Shown here in pieces: positions 16,001 through 64,000 of a stretch of DNA of 64,000 nucleotides. Position 1 is the first letter of the stretch; the number at the start of each line of letters is the position of its first letter. The notes beneath the pieces were generated by a model. That model saw only the letters and a list, made by a program, of their open reading frames with translations. It ran no database searches and had not been told where the DNA came from. The stretch covers positions 189,831 through 253,830 of the forward strand of contig KQ965803.1 of assembly GCA_001574975.1 (NCBI GenBank), written 5' to 3'. The stretch comes from Gonapodya prolifera JEL478 (taxonomy: Eukaryota > Monoblepharomycota > Monoblepharidomycetes > Monoblepharidales > Gonapodyaceae). The position numbers were made by a program, and so were the translations under genes.

Positions 16001-18287
16001 CGGCCTTATTGGTCAGGAACTCGTACCAGTCGAACCCATTATAAACAAACGATCCCGAGGCCGCACCGCCGTCCCGCGTGGGCAGGGACGGTCGGTCAGG
16101 TACCGGAAGGCTCGCGGTGCGAGCGGGAAGTTTTGGTCCGGGTGAGGAGGGGCGGGAATGGGCAGCACCGGGATTGATCGAGCGGACAAAGTCCTGATCC
16201 GCAGGGCAGAGCTTCTCCAGTGGAACGGCAATCTTGACGCCGTTAGTCTTGTGAAGGTGGACCTGGGTGGTTCAACGGAGTAATGGTTATGTGTTGCGCA
16301 GACAAGAAAAAAGGTGGCATGGGATCAGGGAAACAACGGAGGATTAGACCTTCACAACACATTCAACGAAGCCACCTCGTTCTAGTCCATCCAATACCTC
16401 TTCTCCTCCGCCCCACCCACGCCACGCCCCCACTTCCCCCTCCGTACACACACCTTGCCCTCACCAAACGACAAATACTCTGCATCAACTTTAAACGTTC
16501 CCGACTTATCCGTCCACGTGCGCACTTTCGCATTATCAGGCAACGATTCTGCTCACCAAAACGTAAGGTCACCCGCCATCTACATACTCTTTGCAATCAA
16601 AAGTACAAACTCACTTGTTCCACCAACAGACGGACTCCCAGCAGCACTGATCGGACTGCCCATCCCTTCATCCGTACCCCGCCTCGGCAAAGCTGGCGCT
16701 GCACCTCCATCGGGACTCGCCGGCCTCCTCGCCGCAGCCGCAGCCGCCAATCCCGCTAAACCAGCGGGCGCGCCTCCGTATCCGGGGTTCGGGCTCTCGT
16801 CCGCCCCTCCAGCCCCAGAGCGCTTCACCTCGACGTAGGTTCGGGGAACGACACCCTCGCCCCCGCGGCCATCCTTGGCCACCAGGCGCACCCGGATCCA
16901 GTCGGGGTCGTCGTCGGGACCATGACCGGCGTCCGTTGTTCCGTCCAGCACAACAAGGATGTCGTTCTCTCGTACGGAAATCTCGTCGGGTGCCGAGGTG
17001 GACGCATCGGGCGTGTAGGCGTACAGGGCTGTTGCGAGTTTGGGTGCGTTCGGTGCGGGCGCGGGCGGGGAAGGAGGGGCGACGACGGGTGGCGGGGAAG
17101 GAGCGAGCCCCGCCGCGCGGGCAGCGGGAGAGGGGCCAAGCACAGGAGGGGCGATCTTCGGTCCGGCCGAGGAAGGAGGCGATGGCATCGAAGCGGGGAT
17201 AGCGTGCGGTGGAAGCGCGGGCCGAGGTTGTGCGGGAGCGAGAGAGCTGACGGTCTGGTGATACAATGTACCAATGTGGATGTGCTCGAGGTGGATCGTG
17301 AACAGAAGAACGGAATGGACACCCACCTTTTTCAGCCGCGCCATCTCCTCGACCTTTGCTAAAAGCTTTTCTGCGTCCTTCTTATCCTTGAGCTCGAATA
17401 TGCGTTCCTCCCCTCCTCCAAAGTGCAAGTGGACACGTTTTCCCTTCCTCTCTCTTTTGCTCAAATCCGCAAGTGCCCACTTGAAGTAGACGGTGAGTTT
17501 GGACTCGGAGACGAACCACACCGAAACGTCCGACGCTCCGAGTAAACCGTCCCGCACTTTCTTCTTCTTCTTGGGGTCGAGCTCCTGCACAGACCAGTAG
17601 GATATGTCGTTGGGGGCATCCACGTCCGGCTCGTCTCCAAACCGCGATTGCAATTGCGTGGGGTCCGCACGAGGCGAGGAAGCATAGTCAGCCGCAGGAG
17701 CGGAGTCGGCTTGATCTTCTTGTGCGGCGTCGTCGTACGTGTCGTTTGCGGCGTCGGCGGCTCCGACGAGGTAGGATGTTGGGGCGAGACCGATTGTGCC
17801 GTTGAGGGAGCAGATCCACCAGTCGGGGTCTGAACGGTCGAGAACGATGAGCGAGTCGCCCTCGGCGAAGGTGAGCTCGTCCGCGTCGTTGGCGGTGTAG
17901 TCAAATGAAGCTGCAGTTGCGTCGTGTTGAGAGGGCACGAGCTACAAGAAGAGATGGAAGACGAAAGGAGTATGAGTGAATACCCGTGGAGAGGTGGCGA
18001 TACATGAAGTGTTCTCCGGGTTAGACAGTGACCAGTGTCCGGTGCTTGGCCAGCCTTTCCCATCACCACCGATCACGTCTCTTCATAACGCGAGCTCCAT
18101 CACTCACATCCTCAACGTAGCTGCCCGGAATCAGCCCACTCTGCCCAGTCTCGACGTCCTTGCACCGCCACCATCCGTCGTCGCTCTTGCTCTCCACCAA
18201 CACAACCTTGCCCTCCCGTACACCAAGCTCTTCGTCACCCTGCGGGTCGTAGTCGTAAACTACCCGCGCGGCGCTTTCGTATCCCAT
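13076..18287 (-). CDS. SLA1: SLA1-like endocytic actin-assembly adaptor
   Basis: The start is at 18285-18287 (MGYESAARVVYDY). Domains in order are: SH3-1 (about residues 5-58, DDGWWRCKD); SH3-2 (about 65-120, DPDWWICSLNG); a PH-like SHD1-type region (DISYWSVQELDPKKKKK, then VYFKWALADL); SH3-3 (LATALYAYTPD, PDWIRVRLV); SHD1 (RTWTDKSGTFKVDAEYLSF), which in yeast binds NPFxD cargo signals; SHD2/SAM-like (GFDWYEFLTNKAAI, LNGLDVDILKSMGV); and a long Pro/Ser region ending in Met/Gly/Gln-rich repeats (GGMQNGMQ) and ALGLTGMGYRR. Most coding sequence is in two long exons. A 72-nt GTGGGT...CAG segment inside exon 2 keeps the frame and is probably an intron. SLA1 couples cargo, clathrin and Las17/WASP at endocytic patches. 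The domain order is diagnostic. Confidence 0.95.
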
Positions 18288-35473: not shown

Positions 35474-37979
35474 TCACCTCCGAAGCTCCCCCATTCGCAT
35501 CCGATACCCGTCACTTGGGATATACGGCATTGCTCCTTGGAAACTGTCTCCAATTCCTCCTGGTCCTGACCCGAAACCACCCATTGAGTTGCTGAAGCCA
35601 CTTGCGGTATTCGTCTGCCCCAACCCGACATTTGGCCCGCCAACCAAACCGCCGAGTGGGTGCGAACTCTTCTGGGTGTAGCCACTCATGCCATTTCCCG
35701 ATGGTCCCTGAGGAAGAAATGGAGGACCCATCGCCATTCGATAGTTCTCCTGGCCTCCCGCACGCCCTGGGGATGACGGGGTGAAAGAACTCCCAGCAAC
35801 TGACGCGACGGCGGGAAGAGACACATCTTGATCTCCACCACACGCACAAAGCCAAATACGTGTTTTGTAGACTTTGAACAGTTCCCTCACTAGTTCTCGG
35901 AAGTCGATTCGGCGCTCGGCAACAAAGTAGAACGTCAGCTTTTTACGATCCCTGATGTTGCGTTAGATAGTTCTGTTTTGGTTATCCAGATCAGTTCGAA
36001 AATGCGAAAAGATCTCCTACCATTGAAATTCCGCATCCACTACTTCCATCGGCAAGCGTCTCTGTCGGGCCTTCTGTTGGCACATGATCAACGCCAACTC
36101 CTCGTCGTGCATCTTGGTGGCCAACATCGCTAATTCCGCAGTTTGTGCCTGCCTAAAGATTCGTTTTGGCTGAACTTCACCCCTGGGTGATTGGTCGACA
36201 AAGCTGTCTGGGTATTGTGACTGGTAAGACTGGACTTGCGAGGCATTCGTAATGTTTTCTTCCACGACCTTTCCCAAGTCCCTTCCACGGTCTGCCTCTA
36301 CGATTACAAAGTCACCCCTCCGAATTGGCGGACTGGGCGCATCCGGAGAGAAGTAGAAAAAGTCCTTCCGACCAGCTTTAAACTCAACCACAAAGAGAGG
36401 CCAACGGGGACTATACTGGTGGTACTGAAGGTTCCGCGCGCCTTCTGCCCATGCTCGGGCACGATTCTCGGTATTCTCGAAGTAGTCGTTAATCTCATTC
36501 TGAATGAAGGATTCGATCCCCGTCGGCGATGTGTTCACACCCGGAGTATTAACGCCCCCATTGCCTCCAACTATTGATTCCATGTATGAGTTAAACCCTG
36601 GACTGGGTCCTTCACCGATTCGCATGGTTGTCCGCATTTGTTCTGCTAACTCCTCCGGGTCATCATCAAGGTGCAATGGCGTGGGTACCGAGTGACGGCG
36701 GCGGATCTCTGTTTGACCGTTGGTGTTAACAGAATTGGTCGCAGGCAGAATATCGTCGTCGCCACCCGGCCTGCATTGTGAACGGATTAGAATATCAAGC
36801 GCAATAAGAGTGGTGCATGGTCACCTACCGATTGGGCACTGCGGTGTGGTCAAAGTACATTTGCGGAGAATGTGAGTATCGCCTTTGCATTATTTTTGGT
36901 CCAATTGCGCCAAGCACTGAAGATTCATCTCCTCCGGAAAGAGGTTTTGTGCTTACGACTCTTGGTACCGAATATTGCGCCGTTTCCGGAATTTCCAGTT
37001 CGTCGACGCCAGAGAATGCTTCCCACTGTAGCGATTGGGTTAATGACGGCCTCCTTGGATCGGATGGGAGATGTCGAACGGGTGACGGATCATCTTCAGA
37101 GCGAGTGCCCAGCAAAGACCCTGTGGCATGAGAGCTGAACGTAGCGGAGCGAGACCGAAAGTGCGCTTGAAAGCCGTTGGAAAGCGTGGGTAGGTTGTCT
37201 GGCATTTGAGCACCACGAAGTGCCGGTATACTCTCCGGAGAGTGGGTTGCAGGTCCCACTGGCATAATTCCAGGGCTATGACTGCGACTCCGCGGGGATG
37301 TTTGGATGGGGATGCCACGACTGGGCGTTGGAGGGATTGGAGCGATGCCTTGCCGTTGGCCTGAGAGGAGATCAAGTGGGGCCCCTGCCTGTCTCATATC
37401 AAGTCCCGGAGCGGGTCTCGTGGAAGAACCGGGAACATGGATGTTTGGCGTCATGGAAATGCCCAGCGTGTTGGAGTCTGCTGGCACCCAAGGCATTAAG
37501 CGTGGAGTTGCACCCCACTCAATGTCCAAGCTGGCTACGCCCGGTGATTCTGCACCAATAAGGGTGCTGGTACCACTTGTCGGAGAGCTTGCAACAAGTG
37601 GAGACATCCCTATGTGAGAATCCGGGAGATATGCGGTTGGTCCACTTAAGCTACGCTTTCGGAATTTTGGAACCAGCTCAGCGCCAAACGCTGTCTCTTG
37701 CAGCAGATTTGGGAAGTTTACAGGTTCGTTTGTCATATCTGGGGTTCGAGGTGGAGTGGTCGAAAACCCTTGTCGAGGGGTGACTGACCCTTGCCAGTTG
37801 TCATCGGGAGAAGAAGAAGAAGAGCTGAGGCGTTCGGTTGATCTGGTGATTTGTTGGTTATACTCTGCTGTGATATCTTTGTTTGGTGGCAGTGACATGG
37901 AGGCTTTACGATGGAGTAAAACAACGAAACAAAGACACGGGCGACTCACTAAAGCCACCTTTGTCAAGCCTTGAAACAC
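35474..37979 (-). CDS. PSP1: PSP1-domain protein
   Basis: The N-terminal half is disordered and Ser/Pro-rich ([16 protein letters not shown]; short repeated SHSPGIMP-type motifs; [12 protein letters not shown]). After introns, [17 protein letters not shown] and [19 protein letters not shown] begin the conserved C-terminal PSP1 domain. It continues through [30 protein letters not shown] and, in the next exon, [20 protein letters not shown]. It ends KTRIWLC plus a Gly/Ser tail. The start may be 37979 or the ATG 27 codons further in (MSLPPNK). The domain occurs in yeast Psp1 (suppressor of DNA polymerase alpha/cdc mutants) and in trypanosomal and bacterial YaaT proteins. The biochemical role is unclear in fungi. 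The domain assignment is firm. Confidence 0.88.
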
Positions 37980-51300: not shown

Positions 51301-53527
51301 CATCCCTGTACCGGCGCCCTGGGGAGGGAGAACAACGAAGAGGGAGAGAGGTGTCGGAGCGAAGTGTACCGCGATGAGCGGGGCGGGGTGCGGCGGTGGG
51401 GCGATGAGCCACGAGAGCAAATCCACCGTGAAGGCGGACGGCGCTGAGGGTGGCATCTCCGACGACTGTTTTCGTGAATGACGGTTGAGAGCATTGATCT
51501 TCCCCTGGTTTCCTCAACCTCAACGAGCCTACCACCACAGGCCAGGAGGACAAAGGGGAGGGTGGTCACCTTCTGGATGTTTTAGTCTAATGGACAGGAC
51601 AGTCTCTACCCTCTTGCGATTGGAGTTCTCCCGAGAACCGAGCAGCAGTCAAGGACAAACTTATCAGCGTCGTGTTCGAAATATCAAGTCTAAGTGACGC
51701 CAAGTGGGATGCGGAGAGCTCACGAACCAAAGCGAACGACTCCGCGTGCACCATTCGGGTAAATTCTTGGGTGGATACGAGGACCCCGTCCGAGCGCACG
51801 GTACAGATCTATTTCATTTCTTACGAGATTCACGTCGTCATACGCTCCCCGTCTGCCTCATCGGTGACGCGCTGGTAGCACTGGGGTTGCAACCGTGCGA
51901 CATACCGCACGCGATAAAACTAGGGAGCTGTTGTCAGTAATGAATGACTTGACTTCGTGCTGAGGTTGATAGAAATGAACGCCTTGAGAAGGACACCAAG
52001 AATATGCCGTCGAAGCTGAGGAGCAAGCTTGTTCCTGATGCGTCAGCAGGAATTGGTAAGTGGATGTGGATTCTTACGCTTCGGCAACTTTAACAAAACA
52101 TTTTGTAATCGTGGTGCAGCTCAGCCATCTCAACGTTCAAAGCTCCGTGGAAGTAACCTGGTTCATTGGTGGCATTGTCGACATTGTTTTGCTCGTGGTC
52201 TCGGCATGCAAGCGGCGTCTCTCAAGAAAGCTTGTTCGGGGTTCAACATGCGGTTGTCGTAGCGCTTGCTTTCTTCGTGGCACTCAGCGTCCTTGTCACA
52301 CTATCATGACCGTGTTGAGAGCGCGCATCTCAGAATAAAGATGTCGAATCTTGCAAGACAACAAACGAAGAATACGTCTCAACAGCAGAGCTGGGCACCG
52401 GTGAAGTAAGTCAAGCGTCTATGTACAAGGCATATGGAAAGGTCAAGCAGCTCGATTATGATATTCAAGGCTCGAACCTGGAACTTATTGGCCAACTTTC
52501 AAATCTACCATTGTCGTGTATCCAAAGTTTCATCGCATTTACTGGATTGGGAGCTACAGACGTGACTCCAAAACTGAAAATCGGGCTTCAACTTCGTGCA
52601 CAGGAAATGTAACAAGAAGTTGCGACAATGGCAGAATCAAAGTTACAGCCTCATTCGTGTTGCAGGGAACTTTCCTACGCTCAAACGGGGCACCAGACCA
52701 AACGACTCACGCAGAGCACTACAAGAGTCGATTAGACCACTTGGGATACAGCAATCTTGCACGGAGAGTCGCCAATACCGTGAGAGTGGATCGTAAGAAG
52801 AGGGGCAAGGATCGCCAGCGCGATGCCGATGGTCTTTCGAGTAGCACTGCCACGCCGGCAAGAAGGGCTGGTGGGACGAGCAGGATGGCCGGTCTACTGC
52901 TGCCCCTCTGAAAGACCTGCTCAAGAGATTGCTGAATGGCTGTCTCCCCTCGTCTTAAATTCATGCCGCCACCCGCGCTCGCATCTCTAGCAACATGTAG
53001 TATTTGGTATCTCTGAGCTTGTCTGCCTTGACAGTTCTCAAGCGAAGGCGTCGAACAAAGATGGCTGTGCGGAGGGCAAGGAGGTATCGGAGAAACCCTG
53101 ATTGACATGTGGAGTGTTGTCCACTCTTCGGACGTGACTTCTTGACTTGAGAGAATTCGATACCAACAGATACCTGTTCTATGGAATCTTATTGCGATAA
53201 CTGTATGGCGGTTGAAAGGGTGGTCTTCGGCAACACAGTCATGAGTATGATTGGAAGATATAGCTGCAAACTTTAGACAACTCAAATACCTCTAGATAAA
53301 GCTGAAAAACTGAGACCCGTGAATAACTCTCATTTTCCGTGAGATGGCCGGGCGAAAAAAACGTCTGACCAAAGTCGCTCATAAACACTCACTGCTTCGT
53401 TCCGGGTGATTCAATCATTTTGCGGAGGCAAGCAGTGTTTATCGAGGTGAGCCAGCGACGTATTGAACAGGTGGAGGCCTCGCTGACGGAACTCCTGCCG
53501 GTGCGAAAGAACCCCAACCAATCAGCA
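45364..53527. other. gene-poor region of about 8 kb
   Basis: No gene could be supported by family or by clean exon chains. Weak signals: 46809-46982 plus strand, a 57-codon frame with one hydrophobic helix (LVIVVLIMTLTIPNIFIV); 45980-46320 plus strand, a protein-like DLAHVDLTTPIHVFNG; 51590-51800 minus strand, a Leu-rich repeat-like LASLRLDISNTTLISL; 52400-52610 plus strand, a Lys/Tyr-rich stretch. The region holds one copy of the dispersed repeat (49730-50640). Confidence 0.5.
49730..50640 (+). repeat. dispersed repeat of about 0.9 kb, copy 1
   Basis: The stretch matches the reverse complement of 56735-57672 along its length. It starts gtgggcacgtggggtgca, then ggctgctgcgcc. It shares gcctccagatccgcgacgc-type sequence, a C-rich tract, a gaaaccttgcctggccagatc block, cttttcaggtgggg, and ggcgtctcctgggcaacggc near the right end, ending near gacgatggtgtc. 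By eye the right third is over 80 percent alike. No transposase or reverse transcriptase reading frame was seen, and no clear target-site duplication. Confidence 0.75.
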
Positions 53528-55327
53528 ATGGATCCGTCAAAACCCGTCAGCAGCAACACGCGCGACGATCGTACTTGGCGAGACGCCCCGAACTCGCAGA
53601 AATTGGACCGGAACAGGGCAGGGCTCAAAGCATCTGCGCAAAAAGGCGAAAACGTTCGGGACCCCGGGGACCATCGCCCAAGTGGAAGCGGGCCAAATTC
53701 TCGAGATATGCCAGTGCGGAACTCTGGTAAAACGAGAAACCGCTCGCTGAGTCCTCCAAGTTCAGCCGTCGTGGGTAGAGGAACACGTGACGTCAGCGAT
53801 GTCGACGTCGGTCGAGGACGGGACTACGCACTCGATCAAGAAGACGACAGACGCCGCACGGAAGTCGTTCCACCGAAAAACTTCCCGCCCTCTCCTGACC
53901 GCGACACCTATTGTCCCGATAGAAGGAGACTGGAACCTGCGGAGCGGGAGCGAGTCCGTGACGATCGCAGCTCTGGGAACGATGGAGACACAGCACCCTC
54001 ACCACCTCGCAATTTTTTTGGGCGTTTTGGAGATCATGGACGACGAGATGTCTACCCTCCTGTCGGCGGAGAGCGCCTTGGAGGCGGTACTTACCCTCTG
54101 GAGCGTGCGCCCCAATCGTCCTACGCTGGTCCCCCATCTGACGGGCAGCACGCGGCGAGATCTGTGGAGAGCGGATCGCGTGGATTGCCTGAGAGATCTG
54201 GGGAGGGGGCTGCTCAGCTTCAATATCGTGAGTGTTCTACTGATCTTGGTCACGGAGACAGGAGCTACCCTCCTTATCCTACAGGAAATGAGCGAGGATA
54301 CGGCGAGCCCTGCGGGACAAGCGGAACGTATTATGATCGCGATTTTGGGAGCGGTCCCCGCGGCGGATACGGGTCCACTGGCCGCCACGGACGAGGGTAC
54401 AGCGACCAAGAATTTTGGTCTGGATATGGAGACGATTTTGCCTCTACTGGTCACAGTCGAAGGGGGCACGATGGCCAAGCGCAAAGTTTGGGAGGTTTAG
54501 TAGGGCAGAGCACCCCACAGCATTCGTAAGTTGTATGACGGACTCCACGCTCTCGCTGTGCTCTTCTCATTGGCTGTGACTTGACGATTTGGTTCGTCGG
54601 ACGCGGTATTATCAGGGGCTCAGGTCAGTGTCTACACAACTTCTTTCACGTTTTGCGCCGCCTAACCTATATTGCCCTCACAGTTGCGAGGTAAGCATCA
54701 TCAGATACTCTTGGGATCACAGCTACAGGTGGATCTATTGTGGAATCTTCCACTTCTTTTCTTGATGGCAACGGATGGACCAGTACTCGGCAGCAGGCAC
54801 CGACATGGATTTCTGGTTGTCGATTGTGTGGAAGATCATTGACTCATTCTTACTTTGCCGAGTTGATAGTGGAGCTGCAGATACGCGCAGAATGGTTCGC
54901 ATCAGGAACATAAACCACACAACACAGGACCATGAAGTGAGAATGAACTCCTTCCCTTCTGTGAATGTATTTGTCTCAATTCTTCAGGAACGCAGATTGG
55001 AGCGCTCATGGAGCGCTCCGGTAATGTGGTGTCAGTGATCATTCCAAGATACCATGCAACTGGAATAAGTAAAGGGTGAGTGATGGGAAGGCTATCCTGA
55101 TTGGCATGCAGTGACTCATTTCATTATCCTCTCGCAGACACGGCTATGTGACATTCCAAGCGCATGAAGAAGCAGTAGATGCCATCGAAAGGCTTGACGG
55201 GCAGGTGTGTTTCTGTCCTTGTGACGATTCCAAGCACCATCGAAATCCTGTTTGTGTTCAGGAACTTCATGGTCACATATTGAACATCGACTGGGCCCCA
55301 AGCCAAGATGGTACAAACGCAAGATAA
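53528..55327 (+). CDS. RRM protein with long RG/RD/Ser-rich N-terminal region
   Basis: ATG at 53528-53530 (MDPSKPVSSNTRDDRTW) opens an exon of about 330 codons rich in Arg, Asp, Gly, Ser and Tyr, with FGDHGRRDVYPP- and GYGSTGRHGRGYS-like RG/YG motifs. After a GTAAGT donor, and around 54775-54950, an RRM begins with MVRIRNINHTTQDHE. It continues in the next exon with GALMERSGNVVSVIIPRY and after an intron with KGHGYVTFQAHEEAVDAI (RNP1 is GHGYVTF). It ends ELHGHILNIDWAP, with TAA at 55325-55327. One canonical RRM after an RGG/RS-like tail suggests a nuclear splicing or mRNA-binding protein. The exons between 54530 and 54890 are uncertain. Confidence 0.75.
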
Positions 55328-56333
55328 TTGCAGGTGGTTGAATTTTAGTCTCTTGCGTCATGTGATAGCGAAGCTTTCTTTGGGTGGCACTTATTGTTGA
55401 TTGGAGAGTTTGTCAGTTGAAGAATACACAAGTTTTCAATGTCAAGAACCAGAGTCAGATCCTTAGAGCAGCGAAGAGTTTAGAGCTGTTCATCTCCATG
55501 TCTCCATCGTGCTTCTCCGCTCCATCCCAATGAAAATCTTGCGGGTCTAAGTTGCGTGCAGAGGAAGGGAGACGGAATGGCAGAAGGCGCTTTGACGTAT
55601 GGGCGATGGCGTCCCAAGTTCCCGACCTGGAGGTCCTGCCGATCCCCCATCAGATGCAAACGGCAAAACCAACACACCAGGACTGCCAATATAACTGCAC
55701 TGCTCATCTTTCGTGACTTCGCACGTTCCCTCCCTACGGTCCCTGACGTGAAAGATTTAGGGTGACATGAAGTAGGAATGGACCTCGGGGTCACGATGAA
55801 GCGCCGGTGCGTGAGCACGGAGGAGCTCCGGCAAGAGACAGGGCATTGGATCGTGGATGGGAATGGTGGCTTGATCTGTAGTTTGGGCGGCTCCGCTCGT
55901 GTTGGTGGTGTCGTGCAACAATCGGCAAAGTAGATCTGGCAGCTGCCTCCTTCAAAACATGGTGTAACGCTCGCGCCGCAACATGTTGATGATACTTCCT
56001 CTGATCGGACTGTTTGCAGAGGGGCTGGTGGTCTTCATTGTGAAGAATTTTACAGGGTGGTAGAGTCGCGCGCGGTAGGTTTGGGCTTTGGTGGGGATCG
56101 GCATGTTGGGTGGCCTGACGTGCGATCAGGCGCAGACCCAAAAGTCGTCATTCACCCAAGCGTCCTCAGTCTAACTGGAAGTCTGCAAAGGGCATCCCGC
56201 TGAACATTTCAACGACACAAGCCGAAGGGGTGCCAGTAATGGAGAGACACGGAACTCGTGAGGGATGAAAGGGCGGGGAGGGGGGAGGAGGNCCGTTGGA
56301 GGCGAATATCCAGCGCGAAGCGCGAGGATGAAA

Positions 56334-56363
56334 GGGGGGGGGGGGGGGGGGGGGGGGGGGGGG
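56334..56363. other. 30-base G run next to an N, probable assembly weak point
   Basis: The run follows a G-rich stretch, with an N at 56292. It is likely a collapsed or miscalled homopolymer, so distances across it should not be trusted. Confidence 0.8.
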
Positions 56364-60600: not shown

Positions 60601-62798
60601 TGGAAGTGTAGGACGATTGTTCCCACGTCGTTTGGGGTTCCAAGGGGGAGGGAAGAGGGTTTGAGTTCCCGGCATCATCGCGCCGAAACGCTGCTCATGG
60701 CTCAGGGTGCCCAGGTGACTGGGCCAGATTTTCAGCAGAGTGAAAAGAGTCGCGCTGGAACGCGTGTTGGGCGTCGGTCGTGGGAGTGCAAAGGTGGTAA
60801 GTGGTCCAGGCGGTTGAGGTGGTTGGGAGGCAGGAAGAGAGCGAAGGACGCGACGGATGATGACGGGCGAGGGAAGTGGGTGTACTCTCGAAGGTGGGAG
60901 AGTTTGATGGCAAGAGGTGTAAGCGTTGAGGTGGTGTAGGTAAAAATGATGGGGGTGGGTGGGTTGTGTGTTTTGCCGGTCCGCGCGGGAGCGAACGTCA
61001 TCACGTCGAAACAAAGGTCGGATTTCATCATAGAACATCATTTTCGATCGTACTACGAGTAAATGGGGGACGGTGAATTGAATATATTAAATGGGGGACA
61101 ACACTTGGGGACGAAATCAGTGAGAGTGTGGGATGGTGGCCTGTGACAACCAGACGCCAGCAGCGCAGAGGAGAGACGATAGGAGGCGGAATGGTGGTGC
61201 AACTGATCCCAGAGTATGGCCAGAAGAGAGCGGGAACAAGTATTGCTGATATATATGTGTCCTTTGATGGTGAGACCGTGCCATGACGCTATGATTAACC
61301 CCATGCTTTTTGCACTGACCGCAGACAACCCAGACACTCCCCCGCCTCAAGCTCCACAGGCCACAAAACACCATACAAATCCTGTTAGATGATGGCTGGG
61401 CTGGCTGGGATGAGATGCGGGCACCATCGTGACGGAACGACCCCCACCCTCGCCATCCCCGGGCCATCTCCTCGCCTGCCAACCCGACTTCGGCCAACGG
61501 CAAGCCCACTGGACTCCACGCACAGCTTCGCTACGATTCCCGTGCGAGCTTATCTCCTCTCTCCTCGTCGCCGTCTTGTGTGGCGTGATGTCGCCACCTG
61601 TTGTCGGCGATCGAGCGAGGTACTCTGTGGGCCGCAGGACCGAGCAGCGCGCGCTGATGCTGGTCGCCGGTGGACGGTCGGACGTGGGCGCGCGCGAGAC
61701 TCGGTGCCAGAAGGAGTGTTTGTGCGGGACCTTCGTTGCCCTATGGCAAGTGCAGCACCACAAATAGTGGCTTCTAGAAAATGATATCGCGATACTTTCG
61801 GTGAGAAAGCGAATGCAATTCTCTATCAACGCTACGCTGACTGCACAAACAAATGCCAGTGCATGTGCCATCTTGCTCGCTGGGCCCTCTTTCTTCCACC
61901 AGTAAAGATCATCAAGCCCGCCAAACGTGAGTATCGCATCGCAAAAGCGTGGGCAGCACGCAGATGGCACAGAATCGGCCCCTGCTGCCTCAGATTCAGC
62001 GACAGTCGACTCTCTCGCGCCACGTCTCCGTGTGTCATTTTATACTCACTCCTGTTCCTCTTTACCCCTTCAACCGCCCCGCCCTCTCCCTCCACAACCA
62101 TTTCCCATCGATACGCCCCGTTTCCGCCTATCAATCGCGCTTGTCGCGATGTCAACGAACCCCATGATATTTGGAACATCCATTTCACCATAACCACTCG
62201 ATGGCTTGGCACGCCCATAAACTCATCGTATCTAATACCCTTGGCGCTCTCAATGTTGCCTTCGCTGCCTCTCTCCCCTCGGCGTGTCTCCCAAAACAAT
62301 TCACCACCTTGTCTCCCAACACCATCCCCAAACGACCCCTCCACACCTCGCCTCGCATTCTTATTGACAATGGATAACTCAAAATTCTGTTTATCGACGC
62401 CCTTGTCCGAATATTTCGGTGCACTTTTGGAATCGTGCTTCGGCGACATGCACAATGTTTTGGAATGTCATTCGTCTGTTTCGACTCGGACGTCTCGCCT
62501 GTCCACACCATCATCGAAAATCATCAATTGGGCATTGTTGTTGTCGAATCTACACCTGTTTCCTCACTCCCTGTGGAAAACCTCACTCTCCCACCTCACT
62601 CCGAAATACCTCCCTCGTCTCCAAAATACACCCCCAACTTGCACCATCGGGCGTTTCGCTCGCAAATTTGATTCTATTCGCCTCACTCTTTGCATGCTAC
62701 ACTTCCATGATCGCTTGGATCGGTGTACTTGAACGTACCTCGACATTGCACAATTGGTCCACAAAGACATCAAGAATCACCGCACACGGTTCCGCAAC

Positions 62799-64000
62799 AT
62801 GCAGATTTTTGTCAAGACTCGTGAGTAGCATGTCTCGATGCAATGGAGATGCTCGGACGGCGTATTGTCGTCCCGCTTGTAGCGAGGATATCTGCGGGAA
62901 TTTTTCACGNAGTACCCCGTGCTGACGCTTCTAAGACACATCTAAGCTTCGATTCTTTCCTCTCTTCTTATTTGCACTCACATTGACCCTCGCCGCGTCC
63001 AGTCACCGGCAAGACCATCACCCTGGAGGTGGAGTCGACCGACACCATCGAGTACGTCCAGACCAAAATCCAGAGCAAGGGGGGCATTCCTCCCGGCCAA
63101 CAGCGCCTCATTTTTGCCGGAAAGCAGCTTGAGGACGGCTGCACCCTCGCCGACTACAACATCCGGAAGGAGTCCACCCTTGGCCTTGACCTCCGCCTTC
63201 GCGGAGGAGGGCCGGTAGATGGTCGAGAGAAGTGGGGGAAGGCGGTGGATCTCGAGGGCACCATGCCGCGCTCCCGTTCCAGGTCACCACCTCGACGCCT
63301 TCCCCCGGGCTTGCGCCGGCCTGGCGATCGCTCGATGTCTTCCCGGAGGGAGCAAGATCGGGACAGAGCGGTTCCGCGGGATGAGCGGCGAGACCGGGAT
63401 GAAGACAGATGCGAACGCGACCGAGGGGAGGGTAGACGCGACAGGGACCGATGCGACCGGAGTCGGCGGGCTGAGGAGATGTCAAGGTCGCCTCGCCGCC
63501 CCCCAACCGCCTCCCATCGCACACCGCCACAGCACACGCTCCCCCCTCCACCAACGCGCACGGACGCCCCGCCGCCACCGCAAATTGCCATCGCCGCTCC
63601 TCCGCCCCACACTCCGGTCCTGCCCCCACCACAGCGCCAAACCCCCCCTCCTTCGCCGCGCTCGGCCGCACCGACGCCGCAGCAGAGCGAACCCCCCGGT
63701 CCTCCGCCGCGCTCCGCCGCGCCGCCTCCGAAGCATCACACTCTCCCCCCTCCTCCTCCGCGCTCCGCCGCGCCGCCTCCGAAGCATCACACTCTCCCCC
63801 CTCCTCCTCCGCGCACTGCCGCACCGCCGCCGCAGCAGCGCGCTCCCCACCCTCCTCCACCGCGCTCCGCCGCACCGCCTCCAAAGAATCACAATACCCC
63901 CCCTCCTCCACTCCCCGTCCCTCCGCCGCCACCGCAGTCTCTCGCCCCGCCACCTCGTCTGCGACCATCGCTCGCCGCCGCGGCCGGGCGCTACCATCCC
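62799..64000 (+). CDS. divergent ubiquitin fused to RS/RD-rich and proline-rich tail (3' end beyond window)
   Basis: Exon 1 (62799-62820) encodes MQIFVKT and part of the next codon. After an intron (GTGAGT...CAG) exon 2 starts at 63003 and completes a 76-residue ubiquitin fold ending LRLRGG, then GPVDGREK. All lysines are kept except K27, which is Q. Differences from canonical ubiquitin include N25Y, D39G, R54C, H68G and V70D. The last two change the Ile44 hydrophobic patch used by most ubiquitin-binding domains. A basic RS/RD region ([12 protein letters not shown]; repeated RDRDR) follows, then a Pro-rich region of 17-residue repeats (core [17 protein letters not shown]). The frame is open to the window end. 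The fusion type is not one of the ribosomal ubiquitin fusions (eL40/eS31). A splicing- or RNA-linked role is inferred from the RS tail. Whether the diglycine is cleaved is unknown. Confidence 0.85.
63570..63930 (+). repeat. 51-bp (17-residue) tandem repeats in the ubiquitin-fusion tail
   Basis: Units start roughly every 51 bases. Two adjacent units are nearly identical: the gaagcatcacactctccccc block begins at 63730 and again at 63781. Flanking units diverge ([44 protein letters not shown]). A GC-rich bias and high homology are expected to favour copy-number change. Confidence 0.8.

Follow-up and report, generated by a model that had tools for sequence, protein, structure and literature searches.

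In the ribosomal fusions Ub-eS31 and Ub-eL40, ubiquitin serves as a cis-acting chaperone (PMC8122580). Fusions beyond the ribosomal ones are rare, though found in animals, fungi and plants alike, and zf-AN1 and zf-RRN7 are their commonest partners (PMC8122580), and two algae carry 22 and 10 ubiquitin fusion genes, the ribosomal ones included (PMC6332867). Plasmodium and other protists have fusion genes whose ubiquitins are divergent (PMC10457151). In Sde2, an N-terminal ubiquitin-like domain is removed by deubiquitinases at a GG-K junction, and ubiquitin itself can replace the native leader (PMC9508853). Against this background, the premise of the original prediction for the locus described here, that natural fungal ubiquitin precursors are either ribosomal fusions or polyubiquitin, proved too narrow: PMC8122580 and PMC6332867 report others, and this genome itself carries a Ub-Ub-AN1 gene as well as a divergent ubiquitin immediately upstream of a ZZ finger in an overlapping frame.

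We analysed a window of 64,000 nucleotides (C73:189831-253830) from the genome of Gonapodya prolifera JEL478 (47.56 Mb in 207 contigs), the window being the whole stretch of DNA under study. Near its end lies a gene of three exons that begins at window position 62799, extends beyond the window end and encodes 514 aa, opening with a divergent ubiquitin (Table 1). The frame is open from ubiquitin into the tail inside exon 2, so that ubiquitin is joined in frame with an unrelated protein.

Table 1 Features of the ubiquitin fusion gene; positions are those of the window unless prefixed by the contig (C73)
Feature	Position	Strand	Basis
Start context common to polyubiquitin genes	62779..62798	+	blastn
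Exon 1: MQIFVKT plus first base of Leu8	62799..62820	+	frame/translation
Intron 1: 182 nt, phase 1 within Leu8, gtgagt...cag, single N at 62910	62821..63002	+	homology to polyubiquitin intron 1
Exon 2, part coding ubiquitin residues 8-76: LRLRGG end, without intron at residue 58	63003..63208	+	
Linker, residues 77-93 (17 residues); predicted cleavage site before Gly77, cleavage putative	63209..63259	+	
RS/RD stretch, residues 94-176	63260..63508	+	dipeptide count
Proline-rich region, residues 177-394 (residue 394 at C73:253992, outside the window)	63509..64000 onward	+	
51-nt/17-residue proline repeats	63642-63909 (= L009:973-1240)	+	repeat search
Rest of exon 2, beyond the window	to C73:253992	+	open frame
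Intron 2 (predicted): 132 nt, in-frame TGA	C73:253993-254124	+	prediction
Exon 3 (predicted): C-terminal domain, residues 395-514, TAG stop	C73:254125-254487	+	prediction, codon usage

The gene belongs to the known class of ubiquitin fusions, within which its RS/RD-proline partner and broken receptor patch set it apart. Like Ub-eS31 and Ub-eL40 it has a single ubiquitin leader, a GG junction and a basic partner; the partner in those two is ribosomal, whereas here it is not, and the genome has each of those two as a gene of its own (C14, C80). Like the non-ribosomal fusions Ub-AN1, Ub-NiSOD, Ub-actin, Ub-P1 and Ub-membrane protein, it places an N-terminal ubiquitin in frame with an unrelated partner; several of the known partners are lineage-specific (PMC6332867, PMC8122580). 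The portions of those two reports consulted name no RS/RD-proline partner, and 11/76 residues here differ from the genome's ubiquitin. Escape of a fusion ubiquitin from conservation is shared with the Plasmodium RPS27a/RPL40 fusions, in which at least 15% of sites have changed in UbL40 of two lineages (PMC10457151); according to the same source, patch positions 8/44/70 are kept in UbL40 save for V to L, whereas in our gene the patch is broken by V70D and H68G.

Other RNA-linked proteins also pair a ubiquitin-like domain with low-complexity sequence. SF3A1/Prp21 resembles our gene product in this combination (Prp21 domain, PMC1949818), but our 514-aa protein has no SURP match in Pfam, and its ubiquitin is N-terminal and 65/76 identical to the genome's true ubiquitin. 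Sde2 is the candidate for a system that works alike: here too a ubiquitin fold forms the N-terminus, joined through GG to what is presumed to be an RNA-processing protein; it differs in that its junction is GG-K (PMC9508853) and ours GG-G, and in that our domain is a copy of true ubiquitin. Membership of the Sde2 family was rejected for this protein, as Sde2 is absent from the four families that Pfam gave for the 514 aa (E up to 10) and the junction is GG-G. A genome search for PF13019, the Sde2 N-terminal family, gave no match, and since its control gave none either, it does not speak to absence. Among the open-licence papers listed by our searches, judged by title and opening of the abstract, we recognised no description of a fungal ubiquitin fusion of the RS/RD-proline form.

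Intron 1 has a position and phase identical to those of intron 1 in the polyubiquitin genes C44 (194 nt), C32+ (184 nt) and C32- (189 nt), and in the C153 Ub-Ub-AN1 gene a gtgag donor likewise falls within the Leu8 codon. Compared with intron 1 of C32-, it is similar both left and right of its single N (scores 44 and 49; 0/500 shuffles on each side); compared with those of C44 and C32+, it is similar left of the N (0/500 each) and weakly so to the right (9/500 and 30/500 shuffles). When 1.8 kb of upstream sequence together with exon 1 and intron 1 was searched by blastn against the four ubiquitin loci only (plus strand, E <= 0.01), similarity started 20 nt before the ATG, with 84 nt at 85.7% to the C32(-) polyubiquitin (E = 3.8e-20), and nothing within the 1.8 kb beyond those last 20 nt matched any of the four loci. 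Because intron 1 matches polyubiquitin intron 1 in position, phase, near length and, best for C32-, sequence, the predicted junction of exons 1 and 2 is supported. The same homology indicates that the ubiquitin part is built from a polyubiquitin 5' end.

The sequence beyond position 64000, to which the original prediction had pointed, holds no early stop or frame change: exon 2 stays open to C73:253992, and the frame ends at C73:254487, 549 bases short of the end of the contig at 255036, with an AATAAA about 28 nt after the TAG stop. Under a dinucleotide model, the probability that an exon 2 this long is free of stops is P = 0.013. With a codon-usage table trained on seven long open frames in the window, which are not verified genes, the predicted frame of exon 3 scored best of six and was reached by 25/2000 shuffles, and L009:1539-1625, within intron 2, scored negative in all six frames. 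This measure is blunt: the ubiquitin exon, whose coding status is certain, was reached by 185/2000 shuffles, and one of its reverse frames scored higher. By codon position, G+C of the C-terminal codons (0.61/0.36/0.74) follows the pattern of the ubiquitin exon (0.58/0.40/0.79). The open frame of exon 3 has no ATG until MHMM well inside. Taken as modelled, the anatomy of the gene is probably right.

The ubiquitin domain matches the PF00240 profile at E = 4.9e-23 (residues 3-73; profile positions 1-71 of 72) and differs from the genome's own canonical ubiquitin, without insertion or deletion, by S20T, N25Y, K27Q, A28T, D32S, E34G, D39G, R54C, Q62R, H68G and V70D. The initial reading of a ubiquitin fold with a GG end and with H68G, V70D and K27Q thus holds, those being three of the 11 substitutions. 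Canonical ubiquitin, or polyubiquitin, with sequencing errors was rejected, again in line with that reading: the comparison with the C32+ repeat L002 shows differences at 35/228 nt, 22 of them synonymous. When the ubiquitin piece was run against NCBIfam, rad23 appeared at 41.9 bits, far below its cut-off of 207.3 bits.

The processing and activation tail, C-terminal LRLRGG, is intact. Leu8, Arg42, Ile44, Lys48, Arg72, Arg74 and the GG are all retained, as are 6/7 lysines (K27 being Q), and the net charge of the ubiquitin part shifts from 0 in the canonical protein to +1. The Ile44 patch (L8, I44, H68, V70) is not intact: L8 and I44 are kept and the other two residues are changed. Since H68G and V70D break this patch, the domain is, as far as its residues tell, ubiquitin-derived and not a functionally standard ubiquitin. 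In yeast ubiquitin, Arg42, Ile44, Lys48, Gly75 and Gly76 are the positions sensitive even without stress; stress adds Leu8 and Val70, and most of the face opposite the patch tolerates change (PMC4862753). The chance expectation for keeping all five of the most sensitive positions is 0.45, and that for 11 random changes to hit at least two of the four patch residues is 0.098. With the exceptions of H68G and V70D, most of the 11 changes presumably lie on the tolerant face of the structure. A natural ubiquitin with a broken receptor patch and an intact processing tail offers a natural test of the contacts that a deubiquitinase needs.

We compared the variant at synonymous codons over residues 9-57 (147 nt) with all 14 exactly canonical stretches, from C44 (5), C32+ (4), C32- (3) and C153 (2); the ribosomal fusions have no full stretch for this comparison. 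The nearest are the two last C44 repeats (7/41 each), then C32+ at 2430 (8) and C44 at 2265 (9), and the first repeats, which bear intron 1, show 18-23 synonymous differences from the variant. An intron at residue 58 is lacking from the two last C44 repeats, from C32+ at 2430 and from the variant, and is present in C44 at 2265. Unlike the ubiquitin body, the stretch from the start context through exon 1 to intron 1 finds its best match in the first repeat of C32-. A mosaic formed by recombination between a first and a last polyubiquitin repeat would explain both affinities, and gene conversion among repeats can blur such a signal. With start context, intron 1 and body all traceable, this one genome illustrates how a new fusion gene can be seeded by polyubiquitin.

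Against the canonical copies, pN/pS of the variant is 0.11-0.31 in 14/14 copies over residues 9-57 and 0.15-0.29 in 15/15 over residues 58-76. Fisher tests against the nearest copy gave p = 0.0086 (residues 9-57) and 0.00025 (both segments together); when the synonymous changes were halved, placing half on the canonical side, the values were p = 0.35 (residues 9-57) and 0.10 (9-76), which are not significant. The ubiquitin part is therefore probably, not certainly, constrained, and less surely so than the raw pN/pS ratios suggest.

The tail was originally described as RS/RD sequence followed by proline-rich 17-residue repeats, and both elements were recovered. The 83 residues of the RS/RD stretch contain 30 dipeptides of the types RS, SR, RD, DR, RE and ER, a count that shuffling these residues (18.9 +/- 3.2) attained in 1/5000 cases, and the proline repeats have a period of 51 nt with 5.3 copies and 81% matches. 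Codon usage does not single out the frame of the RS/RD stretch (1149/2000 shuffles as good) and gives a slight signal in the proline-rich region (57/2000). Among the repeat copies, 21 synonymous stand against 58 other codon differences, and one reverse frame does better (30 vs 54), which lends no support to selection. No source of the tail emerged within the genome. The idea that it was copied from elsewhere was dropped, the one match at E <= 0.001 in the genome search being the tail itself, and the C-terminal domain has no second genome copy either, its only match beyond itself being at chance level (E = 0.31). Kinship of the tail with an RD-rich neighbour at window position 53369 was likewise rejected (best BLASTP E = 1.6).

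The proposal that the fusion partner is an RNA-processing protein fared unevenly. RS/RD composition speaks for it, and from this composition we infer such a role; a Pfam search of the 514-aa protein found no RNA-binding domain such as an RRM. For the C-terminal domain (about 120 aa), in collections that hold few fungi, 0 PDB sequences were returned up to E = 10, and NCBIfam and PHROGs gave 0 each. Among contig collections, which are viral and prokaryotic, 0 of 4 pattern matches (viral contigs) and 0 of 41 (prokaryote contigs) were confirmed as relatives. A 132-aa query that opens with residues of the predicted intron 2 gave a weak match to the OB-fold family tRNA_anti_2 (14.0 bits, E = 0.062, cut-off 27 bits; match 39-109, in exon 3), a family not listed for the 514-aa protein. 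By eye, the alternating hydrophobic stretches of this domain read like an OB fold, which we regard as a lead.

Our preferred reading, held tentatively and at somewhat under an even chance, is that of a chimeric gene whose product is a precursor from which ubiquitin would be cut off and the RS/RD protein freed. A copy of the native polyubiquitin 5' end (start context, exon 1 and intron 1) with a ubiquitin body, the part whose origin homology shows, would have landed in frame upstream of a unique region coding for the RS/RD, proline-rich and C-terminal parts. In the product, which we infer to be translated over its whole length, ubiquitin would be made first and would aid folding and yield, and a deubiquitinase would then cut after Gly76. 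The freed basic RS/RD protein would start with Gly-Pro-Val and, judging by its composition, would probably be nuclear. Because the freed ubiquitin would be a trivial part of the cell's pool, changes in its receptor patch (H68G, V70D) would have been tolerated, with tail and fold preserved.

Cleavage after Gly76, taken by itself, we place only just below an even chance. The residue after the GG is Gly, not Pro, and cutting is favoured because the LRLRGG-Gly junction is intact and because the ribosomal fusions and Sde2 provide precedents. Many deubiquitinases also grip the patch that includes residues 68 and 70, and cleavage may be poor because V70D and H68G sit there. Cutting and retention are near balance, with a slight lean to cutting, and both readings offered in the original prediction, a domain acting in cis or a precursor of a variant ubiquitin, still stand.

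Retention of ubiquitin as a cis domain is a possible but doubtful alternative. With the Ile44 patch disabled by H68G and V70D, neither ubiquitin-fusion degradation nor other receptors would read the uncut fusion, and the remaining surfaces would let the domain act in docking within a nuclear protein. Such a loss of the patch could pay because the UFD pathway degrades ubiquitin fusions that cannot be cleaved (PMC8122580); Giardia Ub-eS31 is an example of a ubiquitin-like fusion that stays uncut (PMC8122580), and the splicing protein prp21/splicing factor 3 has a ubiquitin-like domain (PMC1949818). Two of the four patch residues are changed, one of them to a charged residue, but this enrichment is weak at the chance level given above, and the intact GG-Gly junction should be cut unless the patch changes block cutting.

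We consider it unlikely that the gene is a recent chimera with weak or absent constraint, its frame open yet functionally unimportant and derived from a duplicated polyubiquitin 5' end. The absence of a second genome copy of tail and C-terminal domain, the lack of a relative of the latter in collections poor in fungi and the faint sign of selection in the tail codons would all fit such an origin. Synonymous divergence of the variant from the nearest repeats is no greater than that among canonical repeats, and another ubiquitin copy of this genome (C27, 63%) carries a TGA in its tail. Against it stand the 514 stop-free codons, with exon 2 alone already improbable under the dinucleotide model, the consensus gtgagt donors and the homologous intron kept, the codon usage of exon 3 and a ubiquitin pN/pS well below 1.

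A further reading would make the gene a case of Sde2-like control newly built from true ubiquitin, which we judge quite unlikely. Here a nuclear RS/RD factor, possibly with an OB fold and acting on RNA or DNA, would be synthesised in an inactive form behind a receptor-silent ubiquitin; it would be regulated either by being released or by the silent ubiquitin that it keeps. If true, ubiquitin-fold activation would have been assembled convergently from a polyubiquitin 5' end, and should cutting regulate the fusion, the function of Sde2 would have arisen independently here.

An artefact of assembly or gene model, with two loci joined at the N of intron 1 or exon 3 taken from another gene, is very improbable: the N at 62910, the nearby contig end, the weak intron 2 acceptor (taaag) and the TGA that the unspliced frame meets at L009:1536-1538, shortly after the donor, would allow for it, but both sides of the N resemble C32- intron 1 at similar length, and exon 3 is in frame, gene-like in codon usage and devoid of an early ATG.

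Further ubiquitin genes were seen elsewhere in the genome. The Ub-Ub-AN1 fusion gene (L012, G000:C153:40500-45500, minus strand) has its zf-AN1 at E = 2.4e-12 on a typed exon join. At L010:2140-2867 (G000:C10), a 63% ubiquitin with an RLRGG-Met end is followed by the ZZ finger (E = 1.3e-7) in an overlapping frame, and the two probably form another divergent ubiquitin fusion. The C27 copy (L011, G000:C27:48358-48588, minus strand), whose TGA falls within the LRL-GG end, looks like a decayed relative, and the sequence after it resembles by eye that after the C10 copy. A further divergent ubiquitin with an RLRGG end (L018, G000:C5:661000-661188, minus strand) runs into a 97-aa open tail, for which Pfam gave no match up to E = 0.1.

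Within the window, an RD/RS-rich frame of 386 aa at 53369-55327 (+) leads, across introns, into a partial RRM (RRM_1 E = 5.9e-5, typed 44-aa join). This predicted RNA-binding protein lies about 7.5 kb upstream of the ubiquitin fusion and is unlike the fusion's tail. An SLA1-like PH domain is encoded at 16580-17941 and a PSP1 domain at 36017-36820, both of which we take to be fungal in character. Searches for DUF6533 and for hydrophobins gave no match, nor did their controls. A run of 30 G occupies 56334-56363, with single Ns nearby at 56292 and 57457.
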